The notes beneath the pieces are model-generated. The model saw only the letters and a list, made by a program, of their open reading frames with translations. It was not told the origin of the DNA and ran no database searches. Positions 24,315 through 30,131 of a DNA stretch of 64,000 nucleotides are shown here, one piece after another. Origin of the DNA: Halarcobacter sp. GTDB lineage: Bacteria; Campylobacterota; Campylobacteria; Campylobacterales; Arcobacteraceae. Where the stretch lies: the NCBI GenBank assembly GCA_030145305.1, contig JAQYVX010000001.1:1-64000 (forward strand), given 5' to 3'. Position 1 is the first letter of the stretch. Every line of letters starts with the position of its first letter. A program made the position numbers and the translations under genes.

Positions 24315-24401
24315 GCCCGTATGGTGAAATTGGTAAACACGTTGGATTCAAAATCCAATGACTTCACGGTCTTGTCGGTTCGAGTCCGACTACGGGTACC
24401 A
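24315..24401 (+). tRNA. tRNA-Leu (anticodon CAA)
   Basis: A cloverleaf can be folded. The acceptor GCCCGTA pairs with TACGGGT (one G-U), the D arm is GGTGAAATTGGTAAAC, and the anticodon stem TTGGA/TCCAA encloses loop TTCAAAA with CAA at 24349-24351. A variable arm of the class II type (ACTTCACGGTCTTGT) is followed by the T arm CGGTTCGAGTCCG. The discriminator is A and CCA is encoded (24399-24401). It reads UUG codons. Confidence 0.96.
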
Positions 24402-24424
24402 CTTACTTTTAATTTAAAACTCAA

Positions 24425-24913
24425 TTATTCAAACGTCGTCAATAATTTTTCAATATCTTTTTTCAAAGAAAGAGGTTTTGTAATAGGTGCATACCTATTT
24501 ATAACTTTTCCATCTTTGTTAATTAAGAATTTTGTAAAGTTCCATTTTATTTTTTCACTTCCAAATAAACCTGATTCTTGTTCTTTTAAATATTTAAATA
24601 ATAAAGATTCATTTTCTCCATTAACTTCTACTTTTGAAAACATATCAAACTTTACATTATAAGTTAAAGAACAAAAACTTTTTATCTCTTCTTCATCTCC
24701 TGGCTCTTGATTTGAAAATTCATTAGAAGGAAAACCTAAAACCATAAAATCTTTATCTTTATAAGTTTCGTATAATTCTTGTAATCCTTCATATTGAGGA
24801 GTAAATCCACAATTACTAGCTACATTTACAATAAGTAATGTTTTGCCTTTATATTTAGACATTGATATTTCTTTTCCATCAATGTCTTTTACATTTATAT
24901 CATAAATATTCAT
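24425..24913 (-). CDS. Glutathione/thioredoxin-dependent peroxidase (GPx family)
   Basis: This full-length 162-residue GPx has the peroxidatic Cys35 in NVASNCGFT, the conserved Gln in GFPSNEFSNQEPG and the Trp/Asn pair in KWNFTKFL. It carries Cys, not selenocysteine. Bacterial members of this kind usually take electrons from thioredoxin, reducing hydrogen peroxide and lipid peroxides. It is followed by, or co-transcribed with, the alcohol dehydrogenase gene upstream on the same strand (28-base gap). Confidence 0.92.
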   Translation of the reverse strand: MNIYDINVKDIDGKEISMSKYKGKTLLIVNVASNCGFTPQYEGLQELYETYKDKDFMVLGFPSNEFSNQEPGDEEEIKSFCSLTYNVKFDMFSKVEVNGENESLLFKYLKEQESGLFGSEKIKWNFTKFLINKDGKVINRYAPITKPLSLKKDIEKLLTTFE

Positions 24914-24941
24914 ATTAATAATTCTCCATTCTTTTTTCCTA

Positions 24942-26087
24942 CTAGGCTTTTTCTAATATTTCTACAATAATTTCTTTTGAATATATTTTATCCATTCCCC
25001 AAACTTTCGATGTCTCATATGCATTTTCTGCTAAAGATCCAATTCCTTCTTTTGGAATATTTGCATCACTAAGAGTTATAGGTGCTCCTATTTTATTAAA
25101 CCATTGTTCTAATTTTTCAATACCTACATTTTCATCATCACTATTAAAAATTTCTCTTGCAAATCTTTTAAATTGAGATATATTTTGTTCTTTGTACCAT
25201 TTCATCCATGCAGGAATTACAACTGCCAGTCCTGCACCATGAGCCACATTGTATAAAGCAGAAAGAGAATGTTCAATCATATGATTAGGGAAATTTCCAC
25301 CTTCTGTTCCTGCTGGAGTTAATCCATTTAATCCTTGTGTTGCAGCCCAAGCAAACTCAGCTCTAGCATTATAATCATTTGGATTTTCAAGTAAAACTTC
25401 TGTTGTCTCCATAATTGTTTTAATAATAGATTCAACAATTCTTGAATTAAAATGAGGATGAACCTTAGCTGTAAAATATACTTCAATACTATGAGCAATA
25501 ACATCTACAGCAGAATAAGCTAAATACTCTTTGCTAACTGTAGCCATAAGTTCAGGATTGATTACAGAAACTACTGGATTTAATAACACTGAAGCTATAG
25601 AATATTTTTGTTTTGTTTCATCATTCATAATCACAGCATTTCCATTCATCTCACTAGCAGTTGCTGAAAGTGTCATAACTGTAAATACAGGTAAGGCTTC
25701 CATAATTTGTGACTTATTAATAAAAAAGTCCCAAACATCTCCATCATACTTAGCACCAACTGCTATTGATTTTGCACTATCAACAACTGATCCACCACCA
25801 ACAGCTAAAACTGCACTAATTTTATTCTCTTTTGCTAGATTAATACCTTCATTTATTTTACTAAGAAGTGGGTTACTTACAACTCCTGAAAGTTCTTCAA
25901 ACTCTATGTTATTTTTATTAAGAGAGTCAATAATTTTCTCATATAGACCATTCTTTTTTACACTCCCTCCTCCATAAACTAATAATACTTTTTTAACATC
26001 TGCTTGTTTTAAGTATTCACCAATATTTTTCTCTTTTTCTTTTCCAAACTCTATTTTTGTTGGGTTGTAATATGTGAAATTATTCAT
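24942..26087 (-). CDS. Iron-containing alcohol dehydrogenase (BdhA/YqhD-like)
   Basis: The 381-residue protein has the group III ADH pattern. The NAD(P) site is in AVGGGSVVDSAKSIA, and the metal histidines are in VDVIAHSIEVYF and MIEHSLSALYNVAHGAGLAVV. It is probably a broad NADPH-dependent aldehyde reductase such as YqhD, which detoxifies short or reactive aldehydes. It is divergent from an HxlR regulator with a perfect palindrome between the two starts, and is followed by a peroxidase gene, so an electrophile or redox response is a reasonable inference. Confidence 0.9.
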   Translation of the reverse strand: MNNFTYYNPTKIEFGKEKEKNIGEYLKQADVKKVLLVYGGGSVKKNGLYEKIIDSLNKNNIEFEELSGVVSNPLLSKINEGINLAKENKISAVLAVGGGSVVDSAKSIAVGAKYDGDVWDFFINKSQIMEALPVFTVMTLSATASEMNGNAVIMNDETKQKYSIASVLLNPVVSVINPELMATVSKEYLAYSAVDVIAHSIEVYFTAKVHPHFNSRIVESIIKTIMETTEVLLENPNDYNARAEFAWAATQGLNGLTPAGTEGGNFPNHMIEHSLSALYNVAHGAGLAVVIPAWMKWYKEQNISQFKRFAREIFNSDDENVGIEKLEQWFNKIGAPITLSDANIPKEGIGSLAENAYETSKVWGMDKIYSKEIIVEILEKA

Positions 26088-26151
26088 TTTTTACCTTTTA
26101 TTTTAAATATTTATGAAAATTGTATCTCCAACATACTTAATTATACCTTAC

Positions 26152-26170
26152 ATTACTTTAGGTAAGTAAT
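26152..26170. promoter_or_regulatory. Candidate HxlR operator between adh and hxlR
   Basis: A perfect palindrome, ATTACTT-N5-AAGTAAT, lies in the 132-base divergent intergenic region, 50 bases before the hxlR start. HxlR-family proteins bind such short inverted repeats as dimers, so this is the likely shared operator. Confidence 0.55.
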
Positions 26171-26219
26171 ACATATTTAAGTAAATTAAGATATAATTAA
26201 CAATATAAAAAGGATTTAA

Positions 26220-26561
26220 ATGTATTATGTAGATGATAAAGAATATAAATGTTCAGTTTCCGTGACAATGGATATTTTTAATGACAGATGGAAGTTAGCT
26301 GTTATTTGGTATCTTCTTGAATCTAATAAAAGATATAAAGAATTAAATAGAGACATAAGTGAAATAAGTCAAAAAACACTTACTATCAAATTAAAAGAGT
26401 TAGAAGAAAAAAATATTATTAAAAGAGAAGTATTTGCAGAAGTACCACTTAAAGTAGTTTATTCTCTTACTCCTATTGGAATGAAATTAAAACCCGTTTT
26501 AAAAGAGATGTTCGAATGGGGTATTGAATATGTAAAAGAAAATGGGAAAATAATTGATTAA
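26220..26561 (+). CDS. HxlR-family (MarR-like winged helix) transcriptional regulator
   Basis: This 113-residue HxlR protein starts with YKCSVSVTMDIFNDRWKLAVIWYLL, in which the Cys (residue 10) is in the position that senses thiol-reactive compounds in relatives such as YodB/HypR. The helix-turn-helix is RDISEISQKTLTIKLKELEEKNII. It probably controls the divergent alcohol dehydrogenase and peroxidase genes. The IS256-type cassette begins only 15 bases after its stop codon. Confidence 0.9.
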   Translation: MYYVDDKEYKCSVSVTMDIFNDRWKLAVIWYLLESNKRYKELNRDISEISQKTLTIKLKELEEKNIIKREVFAEVPLKVVYSLTPIGMKLKPVLKEMFEWGIEYVKENGKIID

Positions 26562-26576
26562 ATATTTAAATATAAA

Positions 26577-26603
26577 GAGAGCGATAGAAATTCCGTGTCA
26601 ATC
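26577..26603 (+). repeat. Left terminal inverted repeat of the cassette
   Basis: It starts GAGAG and contains GAAATTC and GTGTCA, the IS256-like end pattern, and matches the reverse complement of 30071-30097 at 21 of 27 positions. It lies 15 bases after the hxlR stop codon. Confidence 0.85.
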
Positions 26604-26629
26604 TGATAAAATAAAATCAAGGATTGAAC

Positions 26630-26785
26630 ATGGAAGAGAAATATGACTTTGACTTTAATGAAGTTTTAGAAGAATATAAAAGTGGGAAAAAACTTACAGG
26701 AAAAGGTGGACTTTTAGCTCCACTTATAAAACAACTAGCAGAAGCTACTGTTTTATCATTTAAACTCCTAGTCTTAACTTTTTAA
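26630..26785 (+). pseudogene. Truncated IS256-family transposase (N-terminal remnant)
   Basis: A 51-codon ORF begins 27 bases inside the left inverted repeat. Residues ~20-40 (KLTGKGGLLAPLIKQLAEAT) match the N-terminal signature of IS256/Mutator transposases (LTGxxGxLxPLLKxLxEAxL). The frame then runs into unrelated sequence (VLSFKLLVLTF) and stops. All of the DDE catalytic domain is missing; the usual length is about 400 residues. The rest of the element is occupied by cargo genes, so the transposase was lost by internal deletion or replacement. Confidence 0.8.
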
Positions 26786-26839
26786 GAAATTATACTATTA
26801 TACTTTTTTTAATTTATTGTAATAAATCAATTTTAAATT

Positions 26840-27439
26840 TTATTTTTTATAAAATTCTTTTATCAAACTAAGTGTTTCTAAATCTTTTTTAGTACCTCTT
26901 TCTTCTAAATGCCTTATAACTCTTTCATATCTTTCTTTATTAAAATGTTGCCCTAGTCCAAACTTTGCACTAATAGTAGTTGGAACTAATTTGTATATAC
27001 ATACGGCAGTTATGGCTTTTTTATACATTTCGTGATTTAAGGGAATATACTTACCTTCTTTTTGCAGTTTTTTCATTAATGTTTCTAAAGCATTTGCTTT
27101 TTCTTCATAATCTTCTACAAATTGAATTTGCCCATCTAATATAACTGATTTATAAAGTTGTGTTGCAGGACAAGCAGTTCCTGTATCTGTACTAAAATAA
27201 GAAGGTAACAAAGAATAATCTTCAACAACTGAAAAACTTGCATTAGAGTTATTTTTTATAACTTCAATTTTTTTCCCTTTTTTTGCACCATGAAAAAAAA
27301 CTTCACCATCTAGTTCTACAAAATTTATTGGTATAGAATAAGGTTTATTATCCATACAAAGGGCTAATGTTCCATATTCTGCTTTTTGTATTACATCATT
27401 TATTATATTTTTATTCGTTATTTCAAAAACTTTTCTCAT
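26840..27439 (-). CDS. Pyridoxamine-phosphate-oxidase-like FMN-binding protein (NimA-type)
   Basis: The product has about 199 residues of the PPOX/Nim split-barrel family. It shows YGTLALCMDNKPYSIPINFVELDGEVFFHGAKKGKKIEVIKNN, then ASFSVVEDYSLLPSYFSTDTGTACPATQLYKSVILDGQIQFV, a flavin-binding barrel. Members use FMN or F420 to reduce small compounds, and some inactivate nitroimidazoles. The ATG at 27439 is preferred over a TTG at 27463: it starts two bases past the PfpI-like stop codon, so the two are translated together. It is cargo of the IS256-type cassette. Confidence 0.85.
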   Translation of the reverse strand: MRKVFEITNKNIINDVIQKAEYGTLALCMDNKPYSIPINFVELDGEVFFHGAKKGKKIEVIKNNSNASFSVVEDYSLLPSYFSTDTGTACPATQLYKSVILDGQIQFVEDYEEKANALETLMKKLQKEGKYIPLNHEMYKKAITAVCIYKLVPTTISAKFGLGQHFNKERYERVIRHLEERGTKKDLETLSLIKEFYKK

Positions 27440-27440
27440 T

Positions 27441-28025
27441 TTAATTCTTTTCACTCCAATCAAATTGCATCTGCTTTGCTGTTTTTTGGGCTAATTCATA
27501 ATTGTAAATTTTTGAAACTAAATGTAAACTCATATCAATACCTGCTGATATTCCTGCTGATGTGACAATATTTCCTTCATCAACCCATCTTACATCCTCT
27601 ACAACAGTTAATGTTGGAAAATCGTTTTTTAAATCTTCAATATCTTCCCAGTGAGTAGTAACTTTGTGCTTTGTTATTACTTCTGCTTTTGCTAAAAGAA
27701 ATGCTCCGGTGCAAACTGAAGTTAAAAGTTTCACACTTTTTCCTTGCTCTTTAATCCAATTTATTACTTTAGATTTTTTCATTTCATTTGTATGCACTCC
27801 TCCAACTACAATTAAAACATCCAAAGAAGGATGATTTTCAAAAGTAAAATGAGAATTAACTCTATATCCACCTCTTGCAGTTATAATACTTTCTTTTTCA
27901 CTAATTAAGTAAGTATTAAATTTCTCCTTCTCATTTAAAAATCTTGAAGCAACAGAAAATACCTCAAATGGTCCAGAGAAATCCAAGACTTCTGCTTCAT
28001 CATAAATATAAATTCCAATATTCAT
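27441..28025 (-). CDS. DJ-1/PfpI-family protein
   Basis: The protein has 194 residues with the class I glutamine-amidotransferase-like fold. The reactive Cys105 sits in the nucleophile elbow SVCTGAFLLA, and the partner glutamate is in SGPFEVFSVASRF. A histidine lies in VTTHWEDIEDL. The VTTHW segment resembles transcription-regulator-associated and isonitrile-hydratase-like members. Activity could be isonitrile hydration or a glyoxalase/deglycase-type reaction; the sequence does not decide. It is first of a two-gene unit with the PPOX-like gene and divergent from the MocR regulator. Confidence 0.87.
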   Translation of the reverse strand: MNIGIYIYDEAEVLDFSGPFEVFSVASRFLNEKEKFNTYLISEKESIITARGGYRVNSHFTFENHPSLDVLIVVGGVHTNEMKKSKVINWIKEQGKSVKLLTSVCTGAFLLAKAEVITKHKVTTHWEDIEDLKNDFPTLTVVEDVRWVDEGNIVTSAGISAGIDMSLHLVSKIYNYELAQKTAKQMQFDWSEKN

Positions 28026-28114
28026 TAATCCAACCTTTCAACTTTTTTTAGTACTATATCAAATAAGTGTACTTATAACAAGTGCCAAATATTTATATTT
28101 TTATAGGGACAGAT

Positions 28115-29491
28115 ATGTATTTGATTGAGCAAAAAAGAAAAATACCACTTTGTATTCAACTTTATGAAGAGTTAAAAAAAGATATAATTCAAAACTATAA
28201 TGTGGGAGAAAAAATACCATCTATACGTAAGATTGCTTCTATTTATAACTTAAGTAAAAATACGGTTGAAAAAGCTTTTTCTCAGCTTGTTATTGAAGGA
28301 TACATTGATAGCTATCCAAAAAGTGGATATGTTGTTACAGAAACAAATTATCAGGACTTTAATAATAATCAAAAAATAGAAGTAGAAAAAAATGATATTC
28401 AAGAAGAAATTTTATATGATTTTTTCACAGCAAGATTAGCTCAAAATTCTTTTCCTCTTAAACTATGGAAAAGACTTTTTGCAAAAGTAATTAATGAATC
28501 TTTAGATTTTGGGAAGTATCAAGATGGACAAGGAGAACTAGGATTAAGAGAGCAAATCTGCAAATATCTTATAAAATCACGTGGAGTAAACTGTCATGCA
28601 AATCAAATAATTATATGCAATGGTTTTGCTGATTCTATGGGGCTAATTGCAAACCTTTTAAAAGACTCCTATAAAAATTTAGCAATTGAATTCCCAGGTT
28701 ATCACATAGCAAGAAGCGTATTTAATTCTCATAATTATAGTATAACAAATATCTCTGTAGGAAAAACTGGTATTAATTTAGAGGAATTAAATCAATCAAA
28801 ATCAAGGCTAGTTTACATAACTCCCTCACATCAGTACCCAACAGGAGTTACTATTCCAATATCAAAAAGAATAAAATTGCTTGAATGGGCAAAAAAAGTA
28901 GATGGATTTATCATTGAAGACGATTATGATAGTGAACTAAGCTATACAAATAGACCTATCCCTTCTCTTCAAGGACTAGATAAACATGGAAAAATTATCT
29001 ATGCAGGGACTTTTTCAAAATCTTTATCACCTGCAATTAGAGTTAGTTATTTAGTTCTCCCAGCTGTATTATTAAATAAATATAAAAAATCCTATGAATA
29101 TAGAACATCAAAGGTCTGCTTAACTACTCAAAAAGTATTGGAAAAATTTATTGAAGGTGGGTACTGGGATAAACATTTACGTAAAATTAGAACTTCAAAT
29201 AAGAAAAAACATAATATTATGAAAAATCTCCTAATAGAAAAAATTGGAAAAACATTAAAAATTGAGAGGCAAGGTTCAGGATTGGCAATACTAATAAACC
29301 CTACTGTTGACTTTGATTGGGACAAATTAGAAGCGTTATCTAAAAAAAATAAAATGAAACTTTATTATGCAAAAGAAAGAAGTGGTGGAAAATGGCAAGC
29401 CTTGATGATGGGCTTTGGAGGGTTTAATGAAGAAAAAATAGAAGAAGCAATAATTGTATTTTCTAAAATATGGAATAAATGTATTATTTAA
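28115..29491 (+). CDS. MocR-family (GntR + aminotransferase-fold) transcriptional regulator
   Basis: The ATG at 28115 follows AGGGA with five-base spacing and is preferred over a GTG at 28082. The N-terminal ~75 residues are a GntR winged helix (PLCIQLYEELKKDIIQ, then KIPSIRKIASIYNLSKNTVEKAFSQL). The remainder is a fold-type I aminotransferase domain with the PLP lysine in AGTFSKSLSPAIRVSY and the aspartate in IIEDDYDSEL. MocR proteins sense PLP-linked metabolites. It is divergent from the PfpI/PPOX pair, which it probably controls. Confidence 0.92.
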   Translation: MYLIEQKRKIPLCIQLYEELKKDIIQNYNVGEKIPSIRKIASIYNLSKNTVEKAFSQLVIEGYIDSYPKSGYVVTETNYQDFNNNQKIEVEKNDIQEEILYDFFTARLAQNSFPLKLWKRLFAKVINESLDFGKYQDGQGELGLREQICKYLIKSRGVNCHANQIIICNGFADSMGLIANLLKDSYKNLAIEFPGYHIARSVFNSHNYSITNISVGKTGINLEELNQSKSRLVYITPSHQYPTGVTIPISKRIKLLEWAKKVDGFIIEDDYDSELSYTNRPIPSLQGLDKHGKIIYAGTFSKSLSPAIRVSYLVLPAVLLNKYKKSYEYRTSKVCLTTQKVLEKFIEGGYWDKHLRKIRTSNKKKHNIMKNLLIEKIGKTLKIERQGSGLAILINPTVDFDWDKLEALSKKNKMKLYYAKERSGGKWQALMMGFGGFNEEKIEEAIIVFSKIWNKCII

Positions 29492-29588
29492 TAATCAATA
29501 AATCTTTTTTATCAAAATACTTTGCTAAAATAGTTGCTAGTTTAGGTCTTATTTTAACATTAATTAAAAAAACATAAAAAGGATAAAA

Positions 29589-30062
29589 ATGTCTGGTAAA
29601 ATAGTGAGCCTTCTTATATCACAAGATATAAAAAGTTCTATGCAAAAAGTAAATCAAATAGTTTTAGAAGAAGAAAAAGGTATTTTTGGAGATAGATATT
29701 ATAATCAAGAAGGAACATTTTCAAACAAAGGGAAAATAGAACCAGATAGAGATGTTACTCTAATTGAAATTGAGAAAATTGAAGAATTTAACAAAAGTTT
29801 TAATCAAAATATTTCATGTGAAGATTTTAGACGAAATATAGTTGTATCAAACTGTGATTTAAATTCTCTAGTTGGTAAAGAGTTTCAAATTGGGAATGTA
29901 GTTTTAAAAGGTATAAGATTGTGTGAACCATGTAAGTATTTGGAAAAAAGAGTTAAAAGTGAAAATTTTTTAAAAGGAATGGTTCATAAAGCTGGCTTAA
30001 GAGCTCAAATTATCAAAGGTGGAAATATTGATATATCTTCTCAAGTTGAAGTAAATATGTAA
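29589..30062 (+). CDS. MOSC-domain protein
   Basis: The 157-residue stand-alone MOSC (molybdenum cofactor sulfurase C-terminal) domain shows EKGIFGDRYYNQEG, ITLIEIEKIEEF-like DVTLIEIEKIEEF, DFRRNIVVSNCDLNSLVGKEFQIGNVVLKG and the C-terminal LCEPCKYLEKR with the conserved Cys. Such proteins bind molybdenum cofactor or form persulfides; YiiM-type members reduce N-hydroxylated compounds. Its stop codon lies only eight bases inside the right inverted repeat, marking it as the last cargo gene of the cassette. Confidence 0.88.
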   Translation: MSGKIVSLLISQDIKSSMQKVNQIVLEEEKGIFGDRYYNQEGTFSNKGKIEPDRDVTLIEIEKIEEFNKSFNQNISCEDFRRNIVVSNCDLNSLVGKEFQIGNVVLKGIRLCEPCKYLEKRVKSENFLKGMVHKAGLRAQIIKGGNIDISSQVEVNM

Positions 30063-30070
30063 CTATTGGT

Positions 30071-30097
30071 GACTGACACAGAATTTTAAACACTCTC
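30071..30097 (-). repeat. Right terminal inverted repeat of the cassette
   Basis: Read on the minus strand it begins GAGAGTGTTTAAAATTC and continues with GTGTCAGTC. It pairs with the left end at 26577-26603 and is followed by the second AATATAAA octamer. Confidence 0.85.
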
Positions 30098-30103
30098 AAT
30101 ATA

Positions 30104-30131
30104 AAGACTAAAGTCTTCTAACTTTAGTCTT
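30104..30131 (-). terminator. Hairpin after the glycine-zipper gene, probable terminator
   Basis: Eleven-bp perfect arms (30104-30114/30121-30131) with a six-base loop overlap the 3' end of the minus-strand glycine-zipper gene. The left arm overlaps the last two bases of the octamer beside the cassette end, so the insertion lies right against it. Confidence 0.6.

Follow-up and report, generated by a model that had tools for sequence, protein, structure and literature searches.

The locus examined here raises the question of how four intact genes came to lie between the inverted ends of an IS256-family insertion sequence (IS) that has no working transposase of its own. The block in question occupies positions 26577-30097 (3521 bp) of a 64,000-nucleotide stretch of Halarcobacter sp. 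DNA (assembly GCA_030145305.1, contig JAQYVX010000001.1, positions 1 to 64,000), hereafter called the window, which lies on contig 4 of a draft genome that comprises 77 contigs and 3.03 Mb. In our judgement the block is probably, if far from securely, the remnant of a cargo-carrying IS256 element (a transporter IS) whose transposase would have been lost by internal deletion after insertion, and whose cargo would probably have come from a congener related to a genome designated G065.

The two 27-bp ends, GAGAGCGATAGAAATTCCGTGTCAATC on the left (IRL) and GAGAGTGTTTAAAATTCTGTGTCAGTC on the right (IRR), are identical at 21 of 27 positions and are bordered on both sides by the octamer AATATAAA. These coordinates and matches had been given correctly in a preliminary description of the window, and the arrangement is the only one of its kind there: identical 8-mers beside inverted ends (at least 21/27, within 6 kb) occur at this one place and in none of 20 dinucleotide-block shuffles. 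A degenerate pattern covering both ends, which was derived from these same two ends and is not independent of them, has two matches in the window against a mean of 0.00 over 100 shuffles. The earlier proposal that the unit carries IS256-type ends and an 8-bp duplication is borne out by complete elements of the same bacterial family (G083, G006, G009, G054 and others), which possess the left end GGGAGTGTTAGAAATTCCGTGTCAATCTGATA or near variants of it and right ends of the GAGACYGTT type, and whose 8-bp duplications begin at the same base as in the window; both the family-specific inverted ends and the target duplication of IS256 are thus present in the block. The right end closely resembles its counterparts in G111 and G407 (GAGAGCGTTTAAAATNCCGTGTCAG), and the last 40 bp of the block match the right end of G054 at 82.5%, so that IS-like sequence runs to approximately 30059 and the stop codon of the last cargo gene falls inside it.

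On the left, the first 172 bp of the block share 89% identity with the G006 element, of which the transposase frame is itself broken, 87.5% with intact G083 elements and 84% with the G062 element. The transposase start within this part (ATG at 26630) aligns with an intact IS256 transposase at 73% identity across 56 amino acids (aa), some of which lie upstream of the start, and at 78% across 40 aa, which upholds the earlier recognition of an IS256 transposase N-terminus truncated after approximately 41 codons; these codons are all that is left of a DDE transposase of the PF00872/NF033543 type. A full IS256 element with the same ends, sought in this genome as had been proposed, was not found: the 77-contig draft yielded neither an intact IS256 transposase nor a second copy of the left or right end within three mismatches. 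The features of the block, together with the cargo-carrying elements of related genomes, are collected in Table 1.

Table 1. Features of the window block and of related cargo-carrying IS256 elements (G, genomes; L, loci).
Feature	Position	Strand	Basis, size and content
Left 8-bp target duplication copy, AATATAAA	26569..26576		Sequence; related elements have exact 8-bp duplications at this position
Left inverted end (IRL), IS256-family	26577..26603	+	GAGAGCGATAGAAATTCCGTGTCAATC; position and subterminal sequence as in IRL of complete elements
Retained left part of IS256 element	26577..26749	+	84-89% identical to G006, G083 and G062 copies
IS256 transposase start remnant, ~41 codons	26630..26757	+	Alignment to intact transposases; no Pfam match alone
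Cargo 1: PNPOx/Pyridox_ox_2 flavin-binding protein, distantly Nim-like	26840..27442	-	Pfam/NCBIfam
Cargo 2: DJ-1/PfpI family protein	27441..28025	-	Pfam/NCBIfam
Cargo 3: MocR/PdxR-type regulator (GntR + aminotransferase)	28115..29491	+	Pfam/NCBIfam
LysE-type exporter gene, 3' end relic	29497..29588 (about)	+	LysE stands between PdxR and MOSC in relatives
Cargo 4: MOSC-domain protein	29589..30062	+	Pfam/NCBIfam; stop codon within IS right-end sequence
Right inverted end (IRR)	30071..30097	-	GAGAGTGTTTAAAATTCTGTGTCAGTC; inward similarity to G054 right end until ~30059
Right 8-bp target duplication copy, AATATAAA	30098..30105		Sequence
G062 element	L091:72-3203		3132 bp, with transposase; ArsR-type regulator, MerT-HMA, CopZ-like proteins
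G060/G062/G025/G083 elements	L207, L208, L206, L201, L226 (with G010)		2863-2889 bp, with transposase; ArsR-type regulator, ArsP-type efflux permease
G084 element			3141 bp, with transposase; PhzF-like + LysE
G083 longer element			7066 bp, with transposase; signalling proteins, beside another transposase
G013 element			8548 bp, with transposase; signalling proteins
G010 element			Transposase core deleted; ArsR-type regulator + ArsP-type efflux permease
G057 element			Transposase core deleted; AraC-type regulator, LysE, DUF2000
G006 element	L269:8034-11590		Exact duplication, no transposase; single 873-aa SIR2/nSTAND protein
G064 element	L281:5884-11152		Transposase-less; decarboxylase, two radical-SAM proteins, leucine-rich repeat protein
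G078 element			Transposase core deleted; two-component system, sulfatase-domain protein, nested different IS256-type gene
G036 element			Transposase middle replaced by open reading frame (ORF) without Pfam match, between two transposase remnants
G054 element			1248 bp, transposase core deleted; one ORF without Pfam match

Cargo-carrying IS256 derivatives had been expected to be unusual, an expectation that is not supported by a survey of the family. The IRL pattern was searched for in 104 family genomes and sites were paired on the basis of an IRL, an IRR and an 8-bp duplication with zero or one mismatch. Sixty-six IRL sites were found in 37 of the 104 genomes, the reversed IRL pattern having no sites in any of them, and 24 of these sites belong to complete elements with a duplication, which contains one mismatch in two cases (G036 and G064). 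Eight of the complete elements are bare (~1.3 kb) while 16 contain extra DNA or genes, and cargo is therefore not unusual in this family. The other 42 sites lie at contig ends, have decayed or missing right ends, show no octamer match or were incompletely retrieved, as with three of six G054 bare copies. Left out of these counts on account of octamer mismatches are G083d (8862 bp), G061 (6715 bp) and pairs of approximately bare length in G016, G018 and G012, as is G015 (1311 bp, exact duplication), whose left end is of another type and lies outside the 66 sites. As a control on the duplications, identical 8-mers were found in 14 of 26 correctly configured IRL/IRR pairs and in 11 of 12,535 cross-locus pairs, some of which may be one element retrieved twice.

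The 16 cargo elements divide evenly between eight with genes beside a near full-length transposase region and eight, the window included, in which the transposase is reduced, to remnants in the window, G057, G010, G036, G006, G054 and G078 and to flanking IS sequence only in G064. Where the transposase region is near full-length, the passenger genes stand between its 3' side and the right end, and the elements of this type in G062, G060, G025, G083, G084 and G013 all have exact duplications. Together with the IS256 ends and the 8-bp duplication, the occurrence of these same-layout elements in the same genus and family supports a transporter IS as the source of the window block. Among them, the 3132-bp element of G062 is apparently a mercury or metal resistance transporter IS, while the 2889-bp copy in G083 has a frameshifted transposase; for the group with ArsR- and ArsP-type genes the domains were tested on the G060 copy, whose permease scores 299.8 bits against the SO_0444 Cu/Zn model (cut-off 300).

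Particularly informative is the comparison of the G060 and G010 elements, which reside in different genera and are 100% identical over 526 bp and 99.6% identical over 1687 bp, G010 being without approximately 650 bp of the transposase. This near-identity indicates that the carriers crossed genera recently and that transposase deletions do happen. Four elements (G006, G064, G078 and G054) run from their left 133-260 bp straight into the transposase 3' end or the spacer that follows it, and since the deletion endpoints differ between elements the pattern fits independent deletions. As side observations, the SIR2 and nSTAND protein of G006 is reminiscent of an anti-phage defence gene, with no match in PADLOC, and one of the G064 radical-SAM proteins matches viperin models in that database.

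All four cargo ORFs of the window are intact, as had been reported, and the observation that the last of them stops (at 30062) eight bases short of the right end is refined by the placement of this stop within IS-like sequence; the encoded MOSC protein ends in VEVNM, the final NM being absent from the MOSC proteins of relatives seen. The first cargo protein reaches 67.8 bits against the Nim-like model, far below the cut-off of 260, and the regulator scores 429.7 bits against NF052282, above the curated cut-off of 320. Judging from family names only, the cargo is probably a PdxR-controlled redox or detoxification set.

The PNPOx/DJ-1/PdxR/MOSC cargo corresponds to a chromosomal cluster in relatives. 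In G059 this cluster comprises the PNPOx, DJ-1, PdxR and MOSC genes in the same order as in the window, together with an acetyltransferase gene between DJ-1 and PdxR and a LysE exporter gene between PdxR and MOSC, and the four shared genes have 71-81% protein identity. The window differs from this resident cluster in that it has no acetyltransferase gene, retains a LysE relic only and lies between IS256 ends. Across 17 loci with cargo genes, drawn from relatives and from this genome's contig 65, a search allowing three mismatches detected no IS256 left end and two right ends, one in G065 and one on contig 65. In phylogenetic trees the window MOSC, PdxR and PNPOx proteins pair with those of G065 (support 0.92, 1.0 and 0.98, respectively), while the genome's other MOSC protein, encoded on contig 65, is 80% identical to that of the cassette and closest to G059 (89.7%). 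Since the two MOSC copies differ in affinity, a horizontal origin of the cassette is likely on the basis of these comparisons. The contig-65 copy was considered as a native reference and dropped, as it lies approximately 2.2 kb inside a solo IS256-type right end; with this reference unsafe, a foreign origin is likely for the cassette, short of proof.

The solo right end of contig 65 (L080:10034-10078) differs from the right end of the window and has a Gp49-like gene and an AbiEii-type pair on its inner side, and genes similar to this pair stand behind an IS256 left end in G061. The 29 kb of contig 65 that were examined yielded neither a left end nor a pair of matching octamers, and no remnant of a transposase. 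Upstream of its MOSC gene, near 7890-8140 of L080, two copies of the near-palindrome AAAGGGGGACAGTCCCCTTTACCC were noted by eye, possibly a repeat of the repetitive extragenic palindrome type. The G065 right end (L071:1004-1027) is located approximately 80 bp beyond the MOSC gene, and all three MOSC copies (window, contig 65 and G065) are situated near IS256 right ends. G065 was also considered as a capture intermediate and is suggestive only, given that its right end points away from MOSC and that no left end was found on the 9.6-kb contig. A search for further copies of the cassette, another check that had been proposed, was made in the 104 family genomes with the best two candidates per genome scored; among the matches listed none combined cargo and ends, the matches consisting of genes of the flanks, left parts of IS elements, and cargo genes either singly or as the cluster; the best long match was in G065 (83% over 2.7 kb).

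The insertion site itself offers less guidance. An empty site with a single AATATAAA after hxlR, the remaining check suggested by the preliminary description, was not found, and the two flanks are nowhere adjacent in the genomes examined. The right flank was located in 14 of 15 congeners (not in G065), where the neighbour of its glycine-zipper gene is a flagellin gene and not hxlR. When window positions 24320-30130 are set against L109-L122, gpx, an iron alcohol dehydrogenase gene (FeADH), hxlR and the cassette stand where the congeners have flagellin, and elsewhere in this genome only one distant flagellin match (46%) was found. The FeADH-hxlR pair occurs elsewhere in G054, with similarity that stops at 26571, inside the left octamer, and similarity of G060 to the right flank starts at 30103, inside the right octamer; both limits lie in AT-rich DNA and offer weak support. 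The site was rearranged before insertion, and the octamer duplication alone attests that its two flanks used to be contiguous.

On the explanation that we favour, the ancestor would have been an autonomous IS256 element consisting of a left end, a transposase gene, passenger genes and a right end, which had acquired a PNPOx/DJ-1/PdxR/LysE/MOSC cluster, probably from the congener related to G065. Ordinary IS256 transposition into the chromosome after hxlR would have created the AATATAAA duplication, whereupon an internal deletion would have removed nearly the whole transposase gene and another most of the LysE gene, the former stranding the cargo at this site as a regulated module without mobility. 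Several observations weigh against this course of events. Neither end of the window block has the commonest IRL or IRR sequence. The transposase 3' end was not detected after 26757, local scores against eight reference elements all being below the maximum of 100 shuffles, whereas six of the seven other deleted elements retain this 3' end or the spacer after it; the window retains less of the IS interior than most of them, and only approximately 27-40 bp of its right end compared to approximately 60 bp or more in the same six of seven. With regard to the source of the cargo, the window DJ-1 protein does not pair with that of G065, in a tree with weak support, and the position of the contig-65 MOSC gene, described above, points in the same direction. 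The failure to find an empty site in the genomes examined also counts against the explanation.

The preliminary description had the block move as one unit without a transposase of its own. The ends, the duplication and the want of a working transposase stand, while movement without the transposase is unproven, and as same-layout relatives retain the gene, deletion in place after arrival is at least as likely. The corresponding alternative, that transposase loss came first and a related IS256 transposase then brought the cassette to the site in trans, is unlikely, with some points in its favour: ends and duplication are intact with the transposase gone, a state shared by eight of the 24 complete family elements, other genomes of the genus encode related transposases with open frames, and a cognate transposase can activate IS derivatives that have none, according to PMC3129680. 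Set against this, none of the eight transposase-less elements turned up at a second site with an identical deletion, their deletion endpoints vary as they would under independent decay, and this draft genome, as reported above, shows neither an intact IS256 transposase nor a second end copy. It is more doubtful still that a plain IS256 element inserted first and that illegitimate recombination later put the cargo in place of its interior, the block never having moved as a unit. Such a history would agree with a cargo that abuts the right end, with a MOSC stop inside that end and no detectable transposase 3' end, and with the replaced transposase middle of G036; yet it needs two independent breakpoints within one 1.3-kb IS, and the carrying of genes is common, as eight other complete elements have them beside a near full-length transposase region.

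A decayed composite transposon, in which two IS256 copies around the cluster used their outer ends and were then almost wholly deleted, would account for the survival of only the outermost IS256 parts on each side. This is very improbable, as only one transposase remnant was seen in the window block and, by tblastn, no cargo element has more than one transposase region of this type (G078 also holds a different IS256-type gene); in place of two flanking IS copies the window has one left-end remnant and one right end. A chance inverted repeat combined with a chance octamer match, although octamer matches are less rare in an AT-rich region than in balanced DNA, is refuted by the lack of such an arrangement in the shuffles and by 172 bp at 89% identity to a real IS256 left part.

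With respect to known systems, the block shares with IS256-family elements (Pfam PF00872, NCBIfam NF033543) the inverted ends, the left subterminal sequence, the transposase start and the 8-bp duplication, and differs from them in its transposase of ~41 codons, its length of 3521 bp compared to ~1.3 kb and its four cargo genes. Mobile insertion cassettes consist of IS ends around passenger genes. The anatomy of the window block (ends, duplication, cargo, no transposase) is that of such a cassette, a concept named in PMC3129680, and the difference lies in the lack of a second copy among the matches listed from the 104 family genomes, mobility in trans being only putative. The term transporter IS (tIS), which denotes an IS carrying passenger genes, appears in PMC3129680 and PMC9330008. 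The block shares with this class passenger genes that include a regulator of their own and lie between the position of the transposase and the right end; G062, G060, G084 and other relatives keep the full form with passengers and transposase, the latter of which the window copy has lost. Both concepts are already known. Among the titles and abstracts listed in literature searches, none concerned cargo-carrying IS256 elements of the Arcobacter group, which is weak evidence of novelty as most subscription journals lay outside the coverage.

Beyond the family, related IRL sites were found in 45 of 397 sampled phylum genomes (the family included), and exact-core matches occurred in 32 stretches of named records, including Aliarcobacter, Arcobacter, Sulfurovum, Sulfurospirillum and Sulfurimonas. 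Examination of 35 of the 40 regions outside the family revealed nine complete elements with a duplication, seven of bare length and two longer (G115 and G407), whose additional ORFs, bearing rve integrase and HTH_21 domains, resemble a nested IS3-type transposase; the regions showed no other cargo. Cargo carriage may therefore be concentrated in the Arcobacter group, in what is a small sample.

The cassette by itself is a modest finding; of greater interest is the set of related elements. To our knowledge, the uptake of passenger genes by a plain IS and the fate of these passengers have for the most part been deduced from individual cases. Here, bare elements occur in one family alongside cargo elements that keep the transposase and others that have it deleted, with matching ends and duplications, and G060 and G010 form a pair which differs almost solely by a transposase deletion; cargo capture, transfer and fixation thereby become directly comparable. 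We tentatively suggest, with less than even confidence, that Arcobacter-group IS256 elements form a gene-shuttling platform, which would load self-contained modules of a regulator and a function (metal efflux, SIR2/STAND protein, radical-SAM and redox genes) between transposase and right end, carry them between genera and then, time and again, shed the transposase by internal deletion so that the module is fixed, with the window cassette representing a late stage; movement in trans may persist for some forms that lack a transposase. The set of elements in any case reveals a horizontal-transfer route for small regulated modules in the Arcobacter group, one which gene-by-gene annotation would miss.

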